From a virus: a stretch of DNA of 64,000 bases. The stretch's first letter is position 1, and every line of letters starts with the position of its first letter. This document shows positions 1,315 to 55,803 of this stretch, piece by piece. A model generated the notes under the pieces. It saw only the letters and a list, made by a program, of their open reading frames with translations, ran no database searches and was not told where the DNA came from. The translations under genes were made by a program, and so were the position numbers. The stretch is taken from IMG/VR virus record IMGVR_UViG_3300046010_015054, positions 1-64,000 of that record. The stretch is one strand, 5' to 3'.

Positions 1315-1716
1315 TTATGATTCTTCACAGAAATCTAGGAGTTTTTTTAGATGAGCACATTTTTCATATGCTTCTTTTTCTTCAAAAAAGTGTATTGATA
1401 ATTTAAAACAAGTTTTTAGTTCTATTCCATTGAAAAATTTTAAGGCTTCTTTACCTAATTCTTCTTCAAATTTAACTTTGTCTATATAAAAATATGCTCT
1501 ATGAAAGACAACAGCTTCACTAAGAATATCAATGCCTTTCATAAAAGGGAATTCCTTGTGTAATTCTTTATGATAAGTATTTTCACTAAGAATTAATTTG
1601 CGGAACATCCCAACATGGAATAAGGCGGTGTCCTCCAATCTCTTGGGGGAACTTTGAGTTAGTAACTCTTGCCCCGATTCAGAGTCAAAGAGACTAAATA
1701 TCTTATCCATATCCAT
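1315..1716 (-). CDS. Unknown protein, 133 aa
   Basis: I start it at the ATG at 1716 (MDMDKIFSLF); the longer frame to 1821 would run through the tRNA-Gly gene. The protein is helical and Lys/Glu/Phe-rich, with AVVFHRAYFYIDKVKFEEEL in the middle. The ATG sits 5 bases after TATATTTATATCC, so the message may have a very short leader. No family recognised. It is the last gene after the tRNA cluster in transcription order. Confidence 0.65.
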   Translation of the reverse strand: MDMDKIFSLFDSESGQELLTQSSPKRLEDTALFHVGMFRKLILSENTYHKELHKEFPFMKGIDILSEAVVFHRAYFYIDKVKFEEELGKEALKFFNGIELKTCFKLSIHFFEEKEAYEKCAHLKKLLDFCEES

Positions 1717-1763
1717 GGATATAAATATATAGCTTTTTAAAAAAGGGAATGTGGATAATTTTG

Positions 1764-1836
1764 AGCGAAAAACCGGATTCGAACCGGCGACCCTAACCTT
1801 GGCAAGGTTATGCTCTACCAACTGAGCTACTTTCGC
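1764..1836 (-). tRNA. tRNA-Gly(GCC)
   Basis: A 73-nt cloverleaf. Acceptor GCGAAAG/TTTTCGC, anticodon stem TAACC/GGTTA around loop TTGCCAA, T-loop TTCGAAT. CCA is not encoded. A strong hairpin (GCCGTTAC-TTT-GTAGCGGT) lies just upstream at about 1838-1868. Confidence 0.93.
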
Positions 1837-1910
1837 ATACCGAAACCGCTACAAAGTAACGGCTTCTTTACTCCTTCTCCACTTACTCCTTTCAGATGGA
1901 AGGCGAGATG

Positions 1911-1983
1911 AGCTTCCTGTCGGATTCGAACCAACGACCTACTGATTACAAATCAGTGGCTCTACCAGCTGAGCTAAGGAAGC
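1911..1983 (-). tRNA. tRNA-Thr(TGT)
   Basis: A 73-nt cloverleaf. Acceptor GCTTCCT/AGGAAGC, anticodon stem ACTGA/TCAGT around TTTGTAA, T-loop TTCGAAT. No encoded CCA. Confidence 0.93.
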
Positions 1984-2090
1984 GTATGGGAGGTTTTTTC
2001 TAAGACGCTATCGGTTCACGTACTCCCCTTTTGAATCTTTTCTCCGAAGTCAACCTCTCTGGGAAGAGGATTTAGAGGCTAGACTCAGTA

Positions 2091-2255
2091 TTATTCAGCT
2101 GCTGCTTCTTCGCCTTCAGCTTCTACTTCAAGTGAGGTAGAGTCTACAGTAGCAGTAGTATCTACTACTACTTCTTCAACTACTACTTCTTCAGTAGATT
2201 GAGCACAAGATACAGCTACAGCTGCGAAAAGAAATGCAAAAATTGCGTTTTTCAT
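2091..2255 (-). CDS. Small acidic lipoprotein inside the tRNA cluster
   Basis: A 54-residue ORF with a signal peptide (MKNAIFAFLFAAVA) and lipobox AVSC, Cys17 as lipidation site. The mature part is low-complexity, rich in Glu, Val, Thr and Ala, with repeated EEVVV, as in Bacteroidota small lipoproteins. It lies between tRNA-Ser and tRNA-Thr and is probably co-transcribed from the promoter at 2377-2407. It likely resides in the host envelope; roles such as superinfection exclusion are speculation. Confidence 0.75.
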   Translation of the reverse strand: MKNAIFAFLFAAVAVSCAQSTEEVVVEEVVVDTTATVDSTSLEVEAEGEEAAAE

Positions 2256-2282
2256 GATTTTGAATTTAATTAATTAAGTTAG

Positions 2283-2369
2283 CGGAGGCTCAGGGATTCG
2301 AACCCCGGTTAGGCTCTCACCTAAAACAGTTTTCAAGACTGCCGCATTCGACCGCTCTGCCAAACCTCC
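2283..2369 (-). tRNA. tRNA-Ser(TGA)
   Basis: An 87-nt class II tRNA with long variable arm. Acceptor GGAGGTT/AGCCTCC, anticodon loop CTTGAAA within CAGT/ACTG, T-loop TTCGAAT, discriminator G. Confidence 0.93.
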
Positions 2370-2376
2370 ATTCCCA

Positions 2377-2407
2377 TAAATATATGGGAAATTGCGATAA
2401 AAATCAA
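2377..2407 (-). promoter_or_regulatory. Promoter (TTGA-N19-TATATTTA)
   Basis: Fits the 19-base-spacer family, with TTGA at -33. It lies between tRNA-Met and tRNA-Ser and can drive Ser, the lipoprotein, Thr and Gly independently of the upstream cluster. Confidence 0.65.
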
Positions 2408-2408
2408 G

Positions 2409-2482
2409 TGCGCCTTGAGGGGCTCGAACCCCCGACCAAGAAATTATGAGTCTCCTGCTCTAACCGACTGAGCTAAAGGCGC
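2409..2482 (-). tRNA. tRNA-Met(CAT), elongator type
   Basis: A 74-nt cloverleaf. Fully paired acceptor GCGCCTT/AAGGCGC, loop CTCATAA, T-loop TTCGAGC. A paired first base and a non-GGG anticodon stem argue against initiator use. tRNA-Ile with lysidine-modified CAT is not excluded. Confidence 0.85.
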
Positions 2483-2486
2483 ATTG

Positions 2487-2563
2487 TTGGAGAAATGGGA
2501 CTCGAACCCACATGTAACCACTTACCCTTTCTACAAGGTATAAGCTTGAGGGGATATTCTCCA
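2487..2563 (-). tRNA. tRNA-like gene, GTA in anticodon region, D-arm abnormal
   Basis: A clear T-arm (GTGGG TTCGAGT CCCAT) and a 7-bp acceptor TGGAGAA/TTCTCCA fix the ends. A long variable arm GTAA-GTGG-TTAC suggests class II. The best anticodon arm is TACCT/GGGTA with an 8-nt loop holding GTA. The D region (about 16 nt, starting TCCCCTCAAGC) shows no D-stem and no GG dinucleotide. A normal tRNA-Tyr(GTA) exists at 3624-3704, so this may be a decayed copy or an unusual functional RNA. Confidence 0.5.
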
Positions 2564-2569
2564 ATATAG

Positions 2570-2640
2570 TTACCCCCCAGGGACTCGAACCCCAATTAAG
2601 TGGACCAAAACCACTTGTCCTGCCATTAGACGAGAGGGTA
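2570..2640 (-). tRNA. tRNA-Gln(TTG)
   Basis: A 71-nt cloverleaf. Acceptor TACCCTC/GGGGGTA, anticodon stem AGTGG/CCACT with loop TTTTGGT, T-loop TTCGAGT. Confidence 0.92.
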
Positions 2641-2646
2641 ATTAAG

Positions 2647-2719
<73 letters not shown>

Positions 2720-2726
2720 AAATATA

Positions 2727-3476
2727 TTAAATCATACAATATATGTTATGATTAACTACTCTATCAGTAAAGTATGTATTAAGTACCCATTCTGTGTTTG
2801 TAAATAAACTTGAAAAATACATCATAATATATAAATTTAAGGTAGATTCATCTATATTAGGTAATTTATCTAACTTATAATTTTCTTTAATTAACTGATA
2901 TGTTTGATGTTTTGTAAGAAGATTATATGGAGCAATATTATCTGTATAATACTTTCTATAGATTGTAATAATTTTTTCTAGAGGCCAAAACCACATCAAA
3001 TCACAATCAATATTTTGTTGACACTTATAAACATCCTGTAACATTTCTTCCCAAGATTCAAGTTCATAATGGTCTAATAATAGAACATCACATTTACCTT
3101 TGTACTCACTAGCATTCCCATTGAATATTTCTACTTTAGGACTAGTAATAAATGGTGAATTTACTTCTTTATGATAATTTATAAGATCTTGGCTACGTTC
3201 AATAACTGTAATCTTAGTTACTTTAGGATTGTTAATCAACCAATTTTCACGAATCCCAAACCCCATTCCAGTACAAACTACATGTCCATAAGCTAAATCA
3301 TAATGTGAAAAAACTTGATAAGCGGTATCGTGATTATTTTCCTTATAGAGAAGCCATTGTTCTCCATCTACTAAAAGAATATAAGTATTATTATTTTTAA
3401 CAATTTCTACATTCCCCCATTTTCCTTCTTTAATAATAGGAAGTGTAAAATTAAAAGCTTTTAATAGTTGTAGCAT
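2727..3476 (-). CDS. Class I methyltransferase-like protein
   Basis: A 249-residue protein starting at MLQLLKAF (ATG 3476); the longer frame upstream runs into the U-tract of the structured RNA and is unlikely. Residues about 66-98 hold a Rossmann signature: VVCTGMGFGIREN (glycine-rich loop) followed by KITVIERSQDLI, where Glu would bind the SAM ribose, then DVLLLDHYE as a motif IV-like segment. The closest general look is spermidine-synthase-like methyltransferases. It sits inside the tRNA cluster, so a tRNA or nucleic-acid substrate is possible but not shown. Tyr/Asn-rich C-terminal half. Confidence 0.6.
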   Translation of the reverse strand: MLQLLKAFNFTLPIIKEGKWGNVEIVKNNNTYILLVDGEQWLLYKENNHDTAYQVFSHYDLAYGHVVCTGMGFGIRENWLINNPKVTKITVIERSQDLINYHKEVNSPFITSPKVEIFNGNASEYKGKCDVLLLDHYELESWEEMLQDVYKCQQNIDCDLMWFWPLEKIITIYRKYYTDNIAPYNLLTKHQTYQLIKENYKLDKLPNIDESTLNLYIMMYFSSLFTNTEWVLNTYFTDRVVNHNIYCMI

Positions 3477-3487
3477 AATTTTAGTAT

Positions 3488-3618
3488 AAAAAAAAAGAAA
3501 CAGGAACAACTTTATCAGGAATCTAACAAATGCTTAACACACCAATAAGAGAGCTACTAAGTGTGTACCCTTGCGTCGCCGCTCTCTCGGCTAGTTGTTC
3601 TACGCTTCCTCTGTTTCT
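3488..3618 (-). ncRNA. Structured spacer RNA with closing helix and U9 tail
   Basis: Between tRNA-Tyr and the methyltransferase-like gene. AGAAACA (3618-3612) pairs with TGTTTCT (3502-3496) and GGAA (3609-3606) with TTCC (3506-3503), followed by nine U. Inside are the hairpin GCCG-AGAGAG-CGGC and a stem ACACAC/GTGTGT; the first loop (AGAGAG plus flank) can pair with GCTCTCT in the second, a candidate kissing interaction. The U-tract suggests it also terminates transcription. Confidence 0.5.
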
Positions 3619-3623
3619 GTAGT

Positions 3624-3704
3624 TGGAAGGGACGGATTCGAACCGCCGTACCCGTAAGGGAGCAGATTTACAGTCTGCCGGTTTTAACCACTCACCCACC
3701 TTCC
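3624..3704 (-). tRNA. tRNA-Tyr(GTA)
   Basis: An 81-nt class II cloverleaf. Acceptor GGAAGGT/CCCTTCC, anticodon stem CAGA/TCTG around CTGTAAA, variable arm CTCCCTTACGGG, T-loop TTCGAAT. Confidence 0.92.
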
Positions 3705-3708
3705 ATTA

Positions 3709-3884
3709 AAAGAGAGACTTCGGGTCTTTCAGGGTTACTGATTGGTGACTTGCTTGGCCTCGGAATACTCTAAAACCCTTTTTCATCCTTTTAGCACCAT
3801 CACCAACTAACAGCTTCACTATCTCTCTCACAAAAGACTTATCCGGGGACGCTGTTCTTATGGGTAGCGTGATAAGTACTCTTT
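3709..3884 (-). ncRNA. Structured spacer RNA between tRNA-like 3886 and tRNA-Tyr
   Basis: About 176 nt with no ORF. Ends AAAGAG (3884-3879) and CTCTTT (3714-3709) pair. Internal helices: ACTTATC/GATAAGT enclosing ACGCT/AGCGT; TTGGTGA/TCACCAA; CTAAAA/TTTTAG; and AGGGTT/AACCCT, which would cross the CTAAAA stem. Confidence 0.45.
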
Positions 3885-3885
3885 G

Positions 3886-3960
3886 TAGTCAGGACAGGAC
3901 TTGAACCTGTATCTGCCCCCGAATTTACGCGAGCGGTAGTTACCATTACACCACCTGACT
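3886..3960 (-). tRNA. tRNA-like gene, anticodon arm not interpretable
   Basis: 75 nt with a perfect acceptor AGTCAGG/CCTGACT and T-arm ACAGG-TTCAAGT-CCTGT, and D-loop AATGGTAA. The anticodon region CGCTCGCGTAAATTCGGGGGC gives no regular 5-bp stem with 7-nt loop; the best is CTCG/CGGG with the 8-nt loop CGTAAATT. Acceptor, T-stem and 3' flank match those of 4356-4444, so the two are related copies. Confidence 0.5.
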
Positions 3961-3985
3961 ATGTTTCCCCACCTGAGATTACAGT

Positions 3986-4168
3986 GAGTAGATATTCCCG
4001 GTTTTTCCTTTCAAAAACCCTGAGGATCTTACTCCTTGAAAACAGTCAACACTACTGGGAGGAGTTGTGTCGTTCTCCTTTATTCCCACGATGTCCCACT
4101 CGCGCCGTAGACATTCTGCGGGTCTATTGTTTAAGTCTTAGACCAAAGACTGTGAGTATCTCTTACTC
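3986..4168 (-). ncRNA. Structured spacer RNA between initiator tRNA and tRNA-like 3886
   Basis: No ORF. GAGT (4168-4165) and AGATA (4161-4157) pair with ACTC (3989-3986) and TATCT (3994-3990), bulging AAG. Internal hairpins: AGTCTT/AAGACT, TAGAC/GTCTA, GGAG/CTCC, and GGTTTTT-GAAAGG-AAAAACC. The last 25 bases before the next tRNA (3961-3985) lie outside the closing helix. Confidence 0.42.
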
Positions 4169-4172
4169 ATTG

Positions 4173-4244
4173 TAGCGGGAGAAGGAATCGAACCTTCGGC
4201 CTTTGGGTTATGAGCCCAACGAGCTACCTCTGCTCTATCCCGCG
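4173..4244 (-). tRNA. Initiator tRNA-fMet(CAT)
   Basis: A 72-nt cloverleaf with the two initiator hallmarks: an unpaired first position (C1 opposite U72 in CGCGGGA/TCCCGCT) and three consecutive GC pairs in the anticodon stem (TTGGG-CTCATAA-CCCAA). T-loop TTCGATT. Confidence 0.9.
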
Positions 4245-4251
4245 ATATAGG

Positions 4252-4354
4252 AAAGTGTTAACGAATTTAAAGCGTTCTTATGGTAGCTACCTATTCTATT
4301 CAAGTATATCGTACTCGATACTTCACTCTAGTAGGCCGGGTGGTTAACACCTTT
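4252..4354 (-). ncRNA. Structured spacer RNA with 11-bp closing helix
   Basis: AAGGTGTTAAC (from 4353 down) pairs with GTTAACACTTT (4262-4252), 11 bp with one GU. It starts 1 base after the upstream tRNA-like gene and ends 7 bases before initiator tRNA. Inside: AAGTA-TCG/CGA-TACTT hairpin and palindromic GGTAGCTACC. Confidence 0.48.
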
Positions 4355-4355
4355 G

Positions 4356-4444
4356 TAGTCAGGACAGGATTCGAACCTGTACGAATGTTCCTTTCTCCGC
4401 AGACATAAAGTACAACGGTGCGTCTACCATTCCGCCACCTGACT
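4356..4444 (-). tRNA. tRNA-like gene with Leu-type D-arm, aberrant anticodon loop
   Basis: 89 nt. Acceptor AGTCAGG/CCTGACT and T-arm ACAGG-TTCGAAT-CCTGT are perfect; D-arm GCGGAATGGTAGACGC is typical of tRNA-Leu. The anticodon arm is CCGTT/TGCGG (one UU mismatch) around a 12-nt loop GTACTTTATGTC instead of 7 nt, then a 16-nt variable region. No anticodon can be assigned safely. Near-identical ends to 3886-3960. Confidence 0.5.
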
Positions 4445-4449
4445 ATAAA

Positions 4450-4744
4450 AAAGTAATGGTGGGAATCCTGACTACCCACACGTCCTGGACATGCCCCCTT
4501 TCACCCATAATCCAACAGAGTAGCTAATTCTGCTGTAATAACTAGCCGGATTGACTACCGGCACCCGCTGCAGAGATCAGTCTGAATAACTTCGCGGGAC
4601 CTCAGAGGCTGAAGGGTTGTACATTCTACCCCGCAGTTTGAGTGGTTTTACCTCACATGTCTGTTCGACCCAACATTCCTACTTTTCAGCAGTTCAGCCA
4701 GTGCCTTAAGAGCTCTCAACCCTTTTGTTCAGCCACATTACTTT
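4450..4744 (-). ncRNA. 295-nt ornate structured RNA, novel candidate
   Basis: Lies between tRNA-Asn (2 bases away) and tRNA-like 4356 (5 bases away), without an ORF. AAAGTAATG (4744-4736) pairs with CATTACTTT (4458-4450), and U residues follow. Then GGCTG and AAGGGTTG pair with CAACCCTT and CAGCC, 13 bp. Hairpins: CTGCT-GAAA-AGTAG (GNRA loop), TGTT/AACA, CAGA/TCTG, GCCGG/CCGGC, CAGCAGA/TCTGTTG, CATGTC-CAG-GACGTG, GTGGG/CCCAC. GCGGG inside the 13-bp helix can pair with CCCGC outside it, a pseudoknot. No RNase P or tmRNA signature seen. Confidence 0.6.
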
Positions 4745-4746
4745 AG

Positions 4747-4820
4747 CTCTCCCTCCTGGGCTCGAACCAGGGACCTAATGATTAACAGTCATTCGCTCTA
4801 ACCAACTGAGCTAAGGGAGA
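4747..4820 (-). tRNA. tRNA-Asn(GTT)
   Basis: A 74-nt cloverleaf. Acceptor TCTCCCT/AGGGAGA, anticodon stem AATGA/TCATT around CTGTTAA, T-loop TTCGAGC, discriminator G. Confidence 0.93.
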
Positions 4821-4828
4821 ATTTTATG

Positions 4829-4902
4829 TGATCCCGATTGGATTCGAACCAATGACCGTCGCATTAGAAGTGCGATGCTCTATCCAGCTGAGCTACGGGA
4901 CC
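4829..4902 (-). tRNA. tRNA-Arg(TCT)
   Basis: A 74-nt cloverleaf. Acceptor GGTCCCG/CGGGATC, anticodon stem TCGCA/TGCGA around CTTCTAA, T-loop TTCGAAT. Only 8 bases separate it from tRNA-Asn, the one short spacer in this part of the cluster. Confidence 0.93.
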
Positions 4903-4908
4903 AATAGT

Positions 4909-5111
4909 AAATGAAAAACTCCTTCCACGCTCACCGTGGTTGTGGGTTTGACTGAGCATAGTTTACTGCTCACCTGTTATGAGTGCACCATAGAGCAGGG
5001 CCCATCACAGAGTACCTTGGGGCATTTAACCTTCGTTATGGTTGCGATCCATTTGAAGCCAAGGTTCCTTTCAACAGTGCTAATCTGTCTTCTGTAAGGA
5101 ATTTTTCATTT
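4909..5111 (-). ncRNA. 203-nt structured RNA with 16-bp closing helix
   Basis: Its ends AAATGAAAAATTCCTT (5111-5096) and AAGGAGTTTTTCATTT (4924-4909) form a 16-bp helix with one GU. It begins 1 base after tRNA-Leu(TAG) and ends 6 bases before tRNA-Arg. Inside: CCTTGG/CCAAGG (competing with AACCTT/AAGGTT), ATGG/CCAT, TGAGCA/TGCTCA, CCACG-GTGAG-CGTGG. No ORF of note. Confidence 0.55.
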
Positions 5112-5112
5112 G

Positions 5113-5192
5113 TACCGAGAGCGGGACTCGAACCCGCACACACTAGGCACTGGTTCCTAAGACCAGCGTGTCTACCATTCCACCATCTCGGC
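5113..5192 (-). tRNA. tRNA-Leu(TAG)
   Basis: An 80-nt class II cloverleaf. Acceptor GCCGAGA/TCTCGGT, anticodon stem CTGGT/ACCAG around CTTAGGA, T-arm GCGGG-TTCGAGT-CCCGC. First RNA of the main cluster transcript. Confidence 0.92.
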
Positions 5193-5239
5193 TTGTTTAC
5201 CCACATGTCAAATAACGTTTGTTATTTCTAACTCTTTTG

Positions 5240-5270
5240 TAAAGATACGAATAATATAAATATTCGCCAA
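5240..5270 (-). promoter_or_regulatory. Promoter of the main tRNA cluster (TTGG-N19-TATCTTTA)
   Basis: A perfect match to the family consensus. It is followed by a leader hairpin AAATAAC-AAAC-GTTATTT at about 5208-5225 and then tRNA-Leu(TAG). Confidence 0.8.
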
Positions 5271-5279
5271 ATTTTTTCT

Positions 5280-5741
5280 TTAAGTTCTTATAACGTGATC
5301 GGCTGCTCTTGTTGCGATCTGGAGTGAAGGTTTTGTAGTAGATTTAAATCCGGCTGCGTGAACCCAACCTTTAGATGCGGCTACAAGTTTGTTAGATAAC
5401 TTATATTCGTCTTCATTAAAATCTAAATCGATTGACTCGACTTTTAGAGGACTGTTTTCTATAACAAATAATGCGGTTTCAATTGACATTTCTGTCTCTC
5501 TCCACAACCGACCCCAAAAATCTCTGATAATAGGGACTTTAGTTTTATGATATAGAACATGACAACCTCGACTTCTATATCTTAAAACAATAGCAGTAAC
5601 ATAAACTGTTTCAGGGCCCCGATTTTGAGAATCAGTACCCACATAAATCTTAGTTTCTGGGTATTCTTTTATATAATTTAAAAGATACGGGATAAGTTGT
5701 ATGGGTTTATGTGTAGTGCCACTTTTAAAGATCCTATTCAT
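5280..5741 (-). CDS. DUF458-like RNase H-fold protein
   Basis: 153 residues from MNRIFKSGTT (ATG 5741); a longer start at 5759 is possible. IYVGTDSQNRG near residues 32-42 is the hallmark Asp-containing first strand of the DUF458/YkuK group, predicted to have an RNase H-like fold. DLDFNEDEYKLSNKL and the C-terminal RAADHVI segment fit the family's further acidic residues. The length matches the family. It lies just downstream of tRNA-Leu(TAA) and upstream of the main tRNA promoter, so an RNA-processing role is tempting but inferred. Confidence 0.7.
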   Translation of the reverse strand: MNRIFKSGTTHKPIQLIPYLLNYIKEYPETKIYVGTDSQNRGPETVYVTAIVLRYRSRGCHVLYHKTKVPIIRDFWGRLWRETEMSIETALFVIENSPLKVESIDLDFNEDEYKLSNKLVAASKGWVHAAGFKSTTKPSLQIATRAADHVIRT

Positions 5742-5800
5742 GTACAAAATGTACAACAAAAATATAAAATCTCAAAGCTTACACACTTAGATATATTTTG

Positions 5801-5886
5801 TACCGCCTACCGGAATCGAACCGGTACGAACATTGCTGTCCGAGGGATTTTAAGTCCCTTGTGTCTACCTATTTCACCAAGGCGGC
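5801..5886 (-). tRNA. tRNA-Leu(TAA)
   Basis: An 86-nt class II cloverleaf. Acceptor GCCGCCT/AGGCGGT, anticodon stem AGGGA/TCCCT around CTTAAAA, T-arm ACCGG-TTCGATT-CCGGT. It has its own promoter 10 bases upstream. Confidence 0.93.
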
Positions 5887-5895
5887 ATTCTTTTG

Positions 5896-5926
5896 TAAAG
5901 ATATAAATAAATATCTATATCTCCAA
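5896..5926 (-). promoter_or_regulatory. Promoter of tRNA-Leu(TAA) (TTGG-N19-TATCTTTA)
   Basis: Consensus boxes with the 19-base spacer, immediately after the nucleotidase gene stop. Confidence 0.78.
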
Positions 5927-5928
5927 AT

Positions 5929-6435
5929 CTAATAACCCAATTCTTTTAATTTTTCTATAACTTCAGAAGGATCACCATTTGTAGAATGATGTAAACCAAT
6001 TCCACCAGCAGACCTCCAACGAGTAATATTGTCGTATCTATCGTCAATAAGAATATCAGTGGGGTATTTTAAAGCTTGATGTTTGTATTTAGCACCTTTA
6101 AAAATAACTTTAGGCATAGGAGATAAATGGTTTATAACCCATTCATTTTTTCCTATTCTAGAAGAAACATCTTGTGAAGGAGCAGTTAAAAGTTTAGGTT
6201 CATGGTCTTTAATAAAGTTCCAAAGTCTACGACCACCGGGGGTCCAAGGCATTTTAGACCAAAAATCTTTTCCTATGGGAGTAATAGCATTCCAAAACGC
6301 TTCTGTTCCCTTAGTGTCCTCGTATTCCTTAGGAGATAAACCGGTGAAATACTCGAATCTCCCATCGAAATCCGTTAGCACCCCATCCATATCACAGAAT
6401 ATCCTACCCCTCGTTTCCATCATTTCCTCCTTCAT
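5929..6435 (-). CDS. HAD-family 5'(3')-deoxyribonucleotidase-like
   Basis: 168 residues. IFCDMDGVLTDF (residues about 12-23) is the HAD motif I DxDxV of NT5C-type deoxyribonucleotidases; DILIDDRYDNI near residue 128 is motif IV. Such enzymes dephosphorylate (d)NMPs and could tune nucleotide pools. An AAGGAGG stretch lies just before ATGATG at 6423-6418, so M5 or M6 may be the true start, one of the few Shine-Dalgarno-like sites here; the ATG at 6435 is also open. Confidence 0.8.
   Translation of the reverse strand: MKEEMMETRGRIFCDMDGVLTDFDGRFEYFTGLSPKEYEDTKGTEAFWNAITPIGKDFWSKMPWTPGGRRLWNFIKDHEPKLLTAPSQDVSSRIGKNEWVINHLSPMPKVIFKGAKYKHQALKYPTDILIDDRYDNITRWRSAGGIGLHHSTNGDPSEVIEKLKELGY

Positions 6436-54147: not shown

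Positions 54148-55803
<1,656 letters not shown>

Follow-up and report, generated by a model that had tools for sequence, protein, structure and literature searches.

The window analysed here covers bases 1–64,000 of a 170,105-bp virus record (IMG/VR record IMGVR_UViG_3300046010_015054). On its minus strand lies a transfer RNA (tRNA) array whose long gaps hold self-closing structured RNAs. These RNAs are conserved, covarying, modular units adjoining tRNA 3′ ends, and by their predicted structures and homologs at least six unrelated RNA families are present in the one array. The array is probably a mixed operon of tRNAs, tRNA-like RNAs lacking an anticodon and discrete structured non-coding RNA (ncRNA) genes, which would be freed by tRNA processing and would act in trans.

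Layout of the array

ARAGORN finds 14 tRNA or tRNA-like genes on the minus strand between positions 1763 and 5886, and protein genes at 2727–3509 and 5280–5759 interrupt the array. No open reading frame (ORF) of 60 or more amino acids was found on the minus strand at 3509–5280, as the original prediction had stated for the gaps. The tRNAs bound these gaps to within a few to 25 nt of the limits first proposed, but the third gap really extends over 3961–4171. The features of the sub-array are as follows, in the order of the minus strand.

5112–5192, minus: tRNA-Leu(tag), directly upstream of RNA A (ARAGORN; Rfam).
4903–5111, minus: RNA A, about 207 nt, self-closing, flanked by tRNA-Leu(tag) and tRNA-Arg(tct) (freshwater-1 match; compensatory changes, 26 relatives).
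4947–5009, minus: freshwater-1 core (RF02979) of RNA A (cmscan).
4828–4902, minus: tRNA-Arg(tct) (ARAGORN; Rfam, 70.4 bits).
4746–4820, minus: tRNA-Asn(gtt) (ARAGORN; Rfam).
4445–4745, minus: RNA C, about 300 nt, distantly manA-like, closing strands AAAGUAAUG/CAUUACUUU (manA RF01745 match; homologs).
4355–4444, minus: tRNA-like RNA with an AGUCAGG acceptor frame and without a recognisable anticodon arm, called Ile(tat) by ARAGORN (ARAGORN; family analysis).
4245–4354, minus: RNA D110, closing helix AAAGGUGUUAAC/GUUAACACUUU and a hairpin with loop UACCAUAAGAAC (homologs).
4172–4244, minus: tRNA-Met(cat) (ARAGORN; Rfam).
3964–4170, minus: RNA B, about 210 nt, pseudoknot-rich, with complementary 5′ and 3′ hairpin loops GAGAU/AUCUC (51-sequence alignment A1; pair counts; RNAalifold; covariance model R2).
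3885–3960, minus: tRNA-like RNA with an AGUCAGG acceptor frame, called ???(aaat) by ARAGORN (ARAGORN; family analysis).
3832–3884, minus: RNA D53, a 53-nt self-closing hairpin with loop ACCCAUAAGAAC (end pairing; minimum free energy (MFE) z-score; homologs).
3706–3831, minus: RNA E, about 125 nt, self-closing (end pairing; homologs).
3622–3705, minus: tRNA-Tyr(gta) (ARAGORN; Rfam).
3488–3621, minus: RNA F, about 131 nt, multibranched and self-closing, last in the sub-array, with a U-tract at its end (fold; homolog).

Covariation in RNA A and RNA B

The Rfam covariance search proposed in the original prediction found freshwater-1 in RNA A, a sub-threshold manA match in RNA C and no GOLLD or ROOL. 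In a permissive scan RNA A matches the complete freshwater-1 model (RF02979, positions 1–62 of 62) with 68.3 bits and an E-value of 7.8e-15, the gathering threshold being 72. Its homologs score 69.4, 70.1 and 72.9 bits; the last of these, at L035 9871–9932 (comparison loci carry L numbers), exceeds the threshold, and the L035 spacer is 75% identical to RNA A over 204 nt. RNA A itself is a unit of about 207 nt with freshwater-1 as its core. The Rfam model covers this core only, whereas RNA A has a closing helix and is found directly 3′ of many different phage tRNAs. Freshwater-1 was reportedly described without such a tRNA context.

The 16-bp closing helix of RNA A is wholly rewritten in relatives yet still paired, and the inner helices also feature compensatory changes. 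Across 26 sequences, with some rows trimmed at estimated coordinates and a few 5′ strands incomplete, 89.1% of cells are paired and both sides have changed in 35 of 56 pairs. The covariation score is 0.381, compared with at most 0.115 in slid controls. The alignment also contains 60 invariant columns. At least 50 of the 55 distinct non-edge copies immediately follow a tRNA or tRNA-like gene; of the five exceptions, two appear to be coding sequence that matches the search pattern.

For RNA B, alignment A1 of 51 sequences supports three pseudoknots and several hairpins, with 83.1% of cells paired, both sides changed in 34 of 55 pairs and a covariation score of 0.295 (at most 0.123 in controls). 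The first pseudoknot and the 3′ hairpin also emerge independently from RNAalifold. No family of Rfam 15 matches RNA B, while candidate lists outside Rfam could still contain it. An attempt to refute the predicted structures by looking for compensation in relatives failed for both RNA A and RNA B.

The GAGAU loop of the 5′ hairpin and the AUCUC loop of the 3′ hairpin of RNA B are perfectly complementary, and the ends of the molecule are probably closed by a kissing loop. In L025 and L147, two copies found without the loop patterns, the complementarity is kept, in one of them through G-U. The direct end-to-end helix that the original prediction had drawn for 3986–4168 was rejected in favour of the two hairpins. 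Read by eye, paired changes in L102, L248 and L304 preserve the 3′ hairpin, while the end-to-end pairing is weakened or broken.

RNA B starts 1 nt past the tRNA end called by ARAGORN in 64 of 66 close cases. On its other side, the next tRNA begins 12–15 nt past the AAUCUCA of RNA B, a few nt beyond the last hairpin, as in ordinary tRNA–tRNA gaps. By rule, 82 of 97 distinct non-edge copies lie directly 3′ of a tRNA or tRNA-like RNA; visual inspection places several of the remaining 15 there too, which makes the count at least 82.

Relatives and modular exchange

About 160 viral loci were gathered via protein queries beside the array, and two pattern scans contributed at least about 180 more. 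Approximately 90 loci of the protein-query set carry two or more tRNAs, some of them being the same contig fetched twice. The gaps of these arrays fall into two size groups, about 4–10 nt and 40–600 nt; ordinary tRNA–tRNA gaps have a median of 5 nt. The long gaps recur, with the same RNA placed between differing tRNAs across viruses. Not every long gap is an RNA, since some hold missed tRNAs or protein genes.

The upstream neighbour is of 22 types for RNA B and 10 types for RNA A. The order is shuffled as well: in locus L296, the homologs of RNAs B, F, D110 and C have different neighbours. Covariance models R1 (RNA A) and R2 (RNA B) hit 5 and 13 places and nothing else in 1.32 Mb consisting almost entirely of protein-homology loci; the models were built partly from some of these loci, and the scores there are not independent. 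Each model finds one copy in the virus’s own genome, where R2 scores 201.9 bits. The idea of a new RNA class holds insofar as RNA B is absent from Rfam and shows strong compensatory change, but there is no single class, the array containing at least six apparently unrelated families.

Several small spacer families in relatives (GUGUUGUUCCCUUGAGAAAGGAA...AACAACAC and others; L022+3476, L048 14703, L103 1010 and L065 11316) have a compact-pseudoknot look, lie directly 3′ of tRNAs and are possible ribozymes.

Self-closure of the gaps

The ends of each gap (22 nt) were compared with 2000 dinucleotide shuffles. Pairing is significant for 4909–5111 (−18.9 kcal/mol, p 0.002) and 4252–4354 (−12.2 kcal/mol, p 0.012), whose helices of 16 and 11 bp are as originally described. 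It is marginal for 3488–3618 (p 0.05) and 4450–4744 (p 0.067), and not significant singly for 3709–3884 (p 0.27) and 3986–4168 (p 0.37). Taken jointly, the six gaps give a Fisher p of 2e-4 from the window sequence alone. The weak pairing of 3709–3884 is explained by two tandem RNAs within 3706–3884, both of which are self-closing (3832–3884, p 0.001; 3706–3831, p 0.031), and that of 3986–4168 by the closure of RNA B through a hairpin at each end with complementary loops.

Relatives extend this result. Among 234 unrelated non-tRNA spacer families, a closing energy of −10 kcal/mol or lower occurs in 22.6% of cases; exchanging ends among the spacers lowers this to 4.1% (p 2e-14). The self-closure of the gaps is real, as had been proposed, and the description of six helices in six gaps next to tRNAs was slightly overstated. 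The explanation of the helices as chance features of unconstrained spacers, to which the two individually non-significant gaps might point, can be dismissed in view of this excess, the recurrence of the RNAs between different tRNAs and the covariation of RNAs A and B, which already refutes it for those two.

RNAs C, D, E and F

For these RNAs homology and end pairing were compared, formal covariation counts covering RNAs A and B. RNA C matches the full manA model (RF01745, 1–192) with 27.8 bits and an E-value of 2e-4, and its L089 homolog with 25.1 bits, both below the gathering threshold of 55.2. Homologs of RNA C are 86% (L089) and 83% (L296 and L298) identical. RNA C possesses the GUGACUGAA..AA 5′ motif and the UGGGUA..CAG..CCCA 3′ hairpin of manA, but the score is far under the threshold, the interior is larger and, instead of a potential 5′ untranslated region site, it lies between tRNA-Asn and a tRNA-like gene. 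At best it is distantly related to manA.

RNA D110 is 99% identical in L092, 93% in L296 and 78% in L302, where the helix shows a paired change. RNA D53 has an MFE z of −3.49 and homologs of 92% (L007) and 88% (L338). The two have in common a stem with a near-constant 12-nt loop, [U/A][A/C]CC[A/G]UAAGA[A/U]C, which recurs in spacers of 46–157 nt in relatives. On the plus strand of spacers the core CC[AG]UAAGA is present 24 times, against 0 times on the minus strand, a count inflated by homologous copies. Hairpins with this loop are seen in otherwise unrelated spacers (L035 7621–7666, L067 11951–12001, L092 671–774, and window 4245–4354 and 3832–3884).

Homologs of RNA E (L007, L006, L089, L242, L334, L009 and others) have closing strands that differ yet remain complementary. 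The fold of RNA F has a z of −2.36, and its 92% homolog in L296 is internal, between tRNA-Asp and tRNA-Ser.

tRNA-like RNAs

The genes at 3885–3960 and 4355–4444 are assigned, by their shared frame, to an abundant tRNA-like family with further members in L147, L238, L314, L302 and others. Its acceptor, D and T arms are constant and the interior is hypervariable; the RNAs are mostly 67–260 nt overall and largely missed by ARAGORN. A search of the sequence outside ARAGORN genes for a T-arm with a matching acceptor yielded 250 candidates, of which 143 have the acceptor AGUCAGG. One D-arm, which we take to be of the tRNA-Leu type, is shared by 174 copies (covarying acceptors included), and their T-arm is mostly ACAGGUUCGAAUCCUGU.

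A 5-bp anticodon arm with a 7-nt loop and U33 is present in 1.1% of the 174 copies, compared with 1.7% when interiors are shuffled and 85% among 2277 ordinary tRNAs; these are family-wide percentages, the two ARAGORN-called window copies not being scored individually. The set is defined by escape from ARAGORN and is biased against normal anticodon arms, but this bias does not explain the number of copies with one frame and no arm. The interiors (169 analysed) fall into 122 clusters without detectable mutual similarity and show slightly more structure than shuffled sequences do (mean z −0.60). Their minus-strand matches, examined as possible antisense pairs, look like sense copies in reverse-oriented loci.

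A further tRNA-like gene, missed by ARAGORN, is seen at window 2487–2563 (minus strand). It scores 28.9 bits against a tRNA gathering threshold of 29 and has homologs of 80–96% in about a dozen relatives.

Comparison with known phage RNAs

GOLLD and ROOL are structured phage RNAs found near tRNA islands, and GOLLD has been reported to bind ribosomes (PMC12286853). The suggestion that the window spacers are diverged members of these families was rejected: Rfam gave no match to either in the window at gathering, nor in 1700–5950 at E-values up to 5. The window RNAs are also much smaller (50–300 nt). The likeness of context was borne out, since GOLLD fills the spacer between tRNA-Leu and tRNA-Thr in two relatives (L112 3850–4264 and L048 11658–12087; 278 bits).

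The species 1/2 RNAs of phage T4, whose function is unknown, were confirmed as late RNAs by Northern blot (PMC9697503). Their genes, rnaC and rnaD, are annotated as small stable RNAs 3′ of tRNA-Arg, rnaD being 1 nt past it; the window RNAs likewise belong to a phage tRNA cluster and immediately follow a tRNA. No convincing similarity exists between rnaC/rnaD and the window spacers (best E 0.008 over 20 nt). The T4 RNAs are the model for the array RNAs, which would most likely be released by tRNA-processing cuts. Close to its 3′ end, T4 rnaC (L346 1109–1247) has the T-arm of a tRNA (CCGGGTTCGAATCCCGG), and its interior is replaced, a resemblance to the tRNA-like RNAs.

Proposed mechanism and alternatives

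In the proposed operon, tRNAs would be the punctuation between RNA genes. The 5′ end of each RNA would arise from the cut at the 3′ end of the upstream tRNA, and its 3′ end from the RNase P cut at the next tRNA or, if the RNA is the last, from a U-rich terminator. The closing helix, or in RNA B the probable kissing loop, would seal and protect the ends, and the freed RNAs would act in trans during infection. We infer co-transcription, excision, stability and action in trans of the array RNAs. Their targets may lie in host takeover or translation, because the operon is shared with tRNAs and GOLLD has been reported on ribosomes.

Several observations weigh against this mechanism. All relatives are uncultured contigs, the array RNAs being known here from sequence alone. 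Judged by MFE alone, RNAs B, D110 and C show no unusual stability (z about −1). Both loops of RNA B are invariant in A1 and both were fixed in the search patterns, so covariation cannot test the kissing loop. A tract of T5 or longer follows 8 of 14 last copies of RNA A, compared with 5 of 22 copies with a downstream tRNA, and the tie of the U-tract to the last array position is only suggestive.

The main rivals are roles in cis and self-cleavage. In the former case, the RNAs would be insulators or processing guides that help the flanking tRNAs to fold and be cut. In favour of this, they adjoin tRNA 3′ ends and, through their helices, draw the tRNAs on either side closer to each other. We nevertheless consider it unlikely that the helices only guide tRNA processing, as the original prediction had allowed, because the cores are long and conserved (the 60 invariant columns of RNA A), the modules move between tRNAs and about 890 tRNA–tRNA junctions of 20 nt or less have no structured RNA. 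Furthermore, several unrelated families would be doing one and the same job, and copies of RNA A without a downstream tRNA exist.

Some of the RNAs, with RNA B as the best candidate, might instead be new theta-like self-cleaving ribozymes that cut the tRNA 3′ end. This rival is serious because theta ribozymes occur no more than 5 nt from the 3′ ends of phage tRNAs, chiefly in phages of Bacteroidota (PMC10879173); RNA B lies 1 nt past the tRNA end called by ARAGORN and is pseudoknot-rich. Unlike theta ribozymes, the window RNAs show no detectable fold of the hepatitis delta virus (HDV) type: none has an HDV-type match in Rfam, and a coarse HDV-topology scan 3′ of 2259 tRNAs was not enriched (109 versus 125 in shuffles). 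Most array tRNAs also lack RNA B, and self-cleavage appears improbable.

There is only a slim chance that the RNAs are transcription elements (antitermination, attenuation or terminators) setting how far the array is read. RNA F ends in a U-tract, many terminal copies of RNA A run into one and the ends of D-type hairpins are U-rich. Such a role does not need a fixed distance from a tRNA, and most of the RNAs are in mid-array with further tRNAs downstream. To our knowledge, RNAs A and B also exceed antiterminator sites in size.

Besides the mixed operon, we tentatively propose a broader possibility, a platform of modular RNA cassettes. In it, tRNA and tRNA-like frames that stay constant might act as processing and recombination anchors for exchangeable ncRNAs, and the anticodon-less tRNA-like RNAs might themselves be a set of effectors that diversify rapidly. 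They might, for instance, be decoys against host defences that target tRNAs, or present RNAs on a tRNA scaffold.

Host and cultured phages

The virus encodes a GroEL (54148–55800, minus strand) whose closest counterpart in cultured phages is that of Flavobacterium phage immuto (57% identity), and the one GTDB contig carrying the 18-base start of RNA B belongs to a Bacteroidia bin. Both point to Bacteroidota as the likely host. A blastn search of 50,697 cultured-phage records found none with RNA A, RNA B or the tRNA-like RNA at 4355–4444, and the tRNA cluster of immuto has no clear homolog of the window RNA families. Immuto does feature an 84-nt self-closing spacer between tRNA-Glu and tRNA-Gln (L349 21172–21255), a possible laboratory model.

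Significance

Since phage RNAs near tRNAs are already known, the novelty is confined to the families, context and exchange found here: several families in one array, at least one of them absent from Rfam, modular exchange, and the orphan Rfam motif freshwater-1 now set in a full-length gene with a defined context. GOLLD, ROOL and the T4 species 1/2 RNAs have long been without a function or a unifying picture. Anchoring at the tRNA 3′ end predicts exact RNA ends, and excision and function become directly testable. The analysis has also exposed a tRNA-like family missed or misnamed by a standard tRNA finder, and it shows that the long spacers of phage tRNA arrays, as well as their unusual “tRNAs”, deserve searches for RNA genes. 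The free shuffling of separate folded RNA genes between tRNAs suggests that in these viruses tRNA genes serve to produce and free a whole toolbox of ncRNAs.

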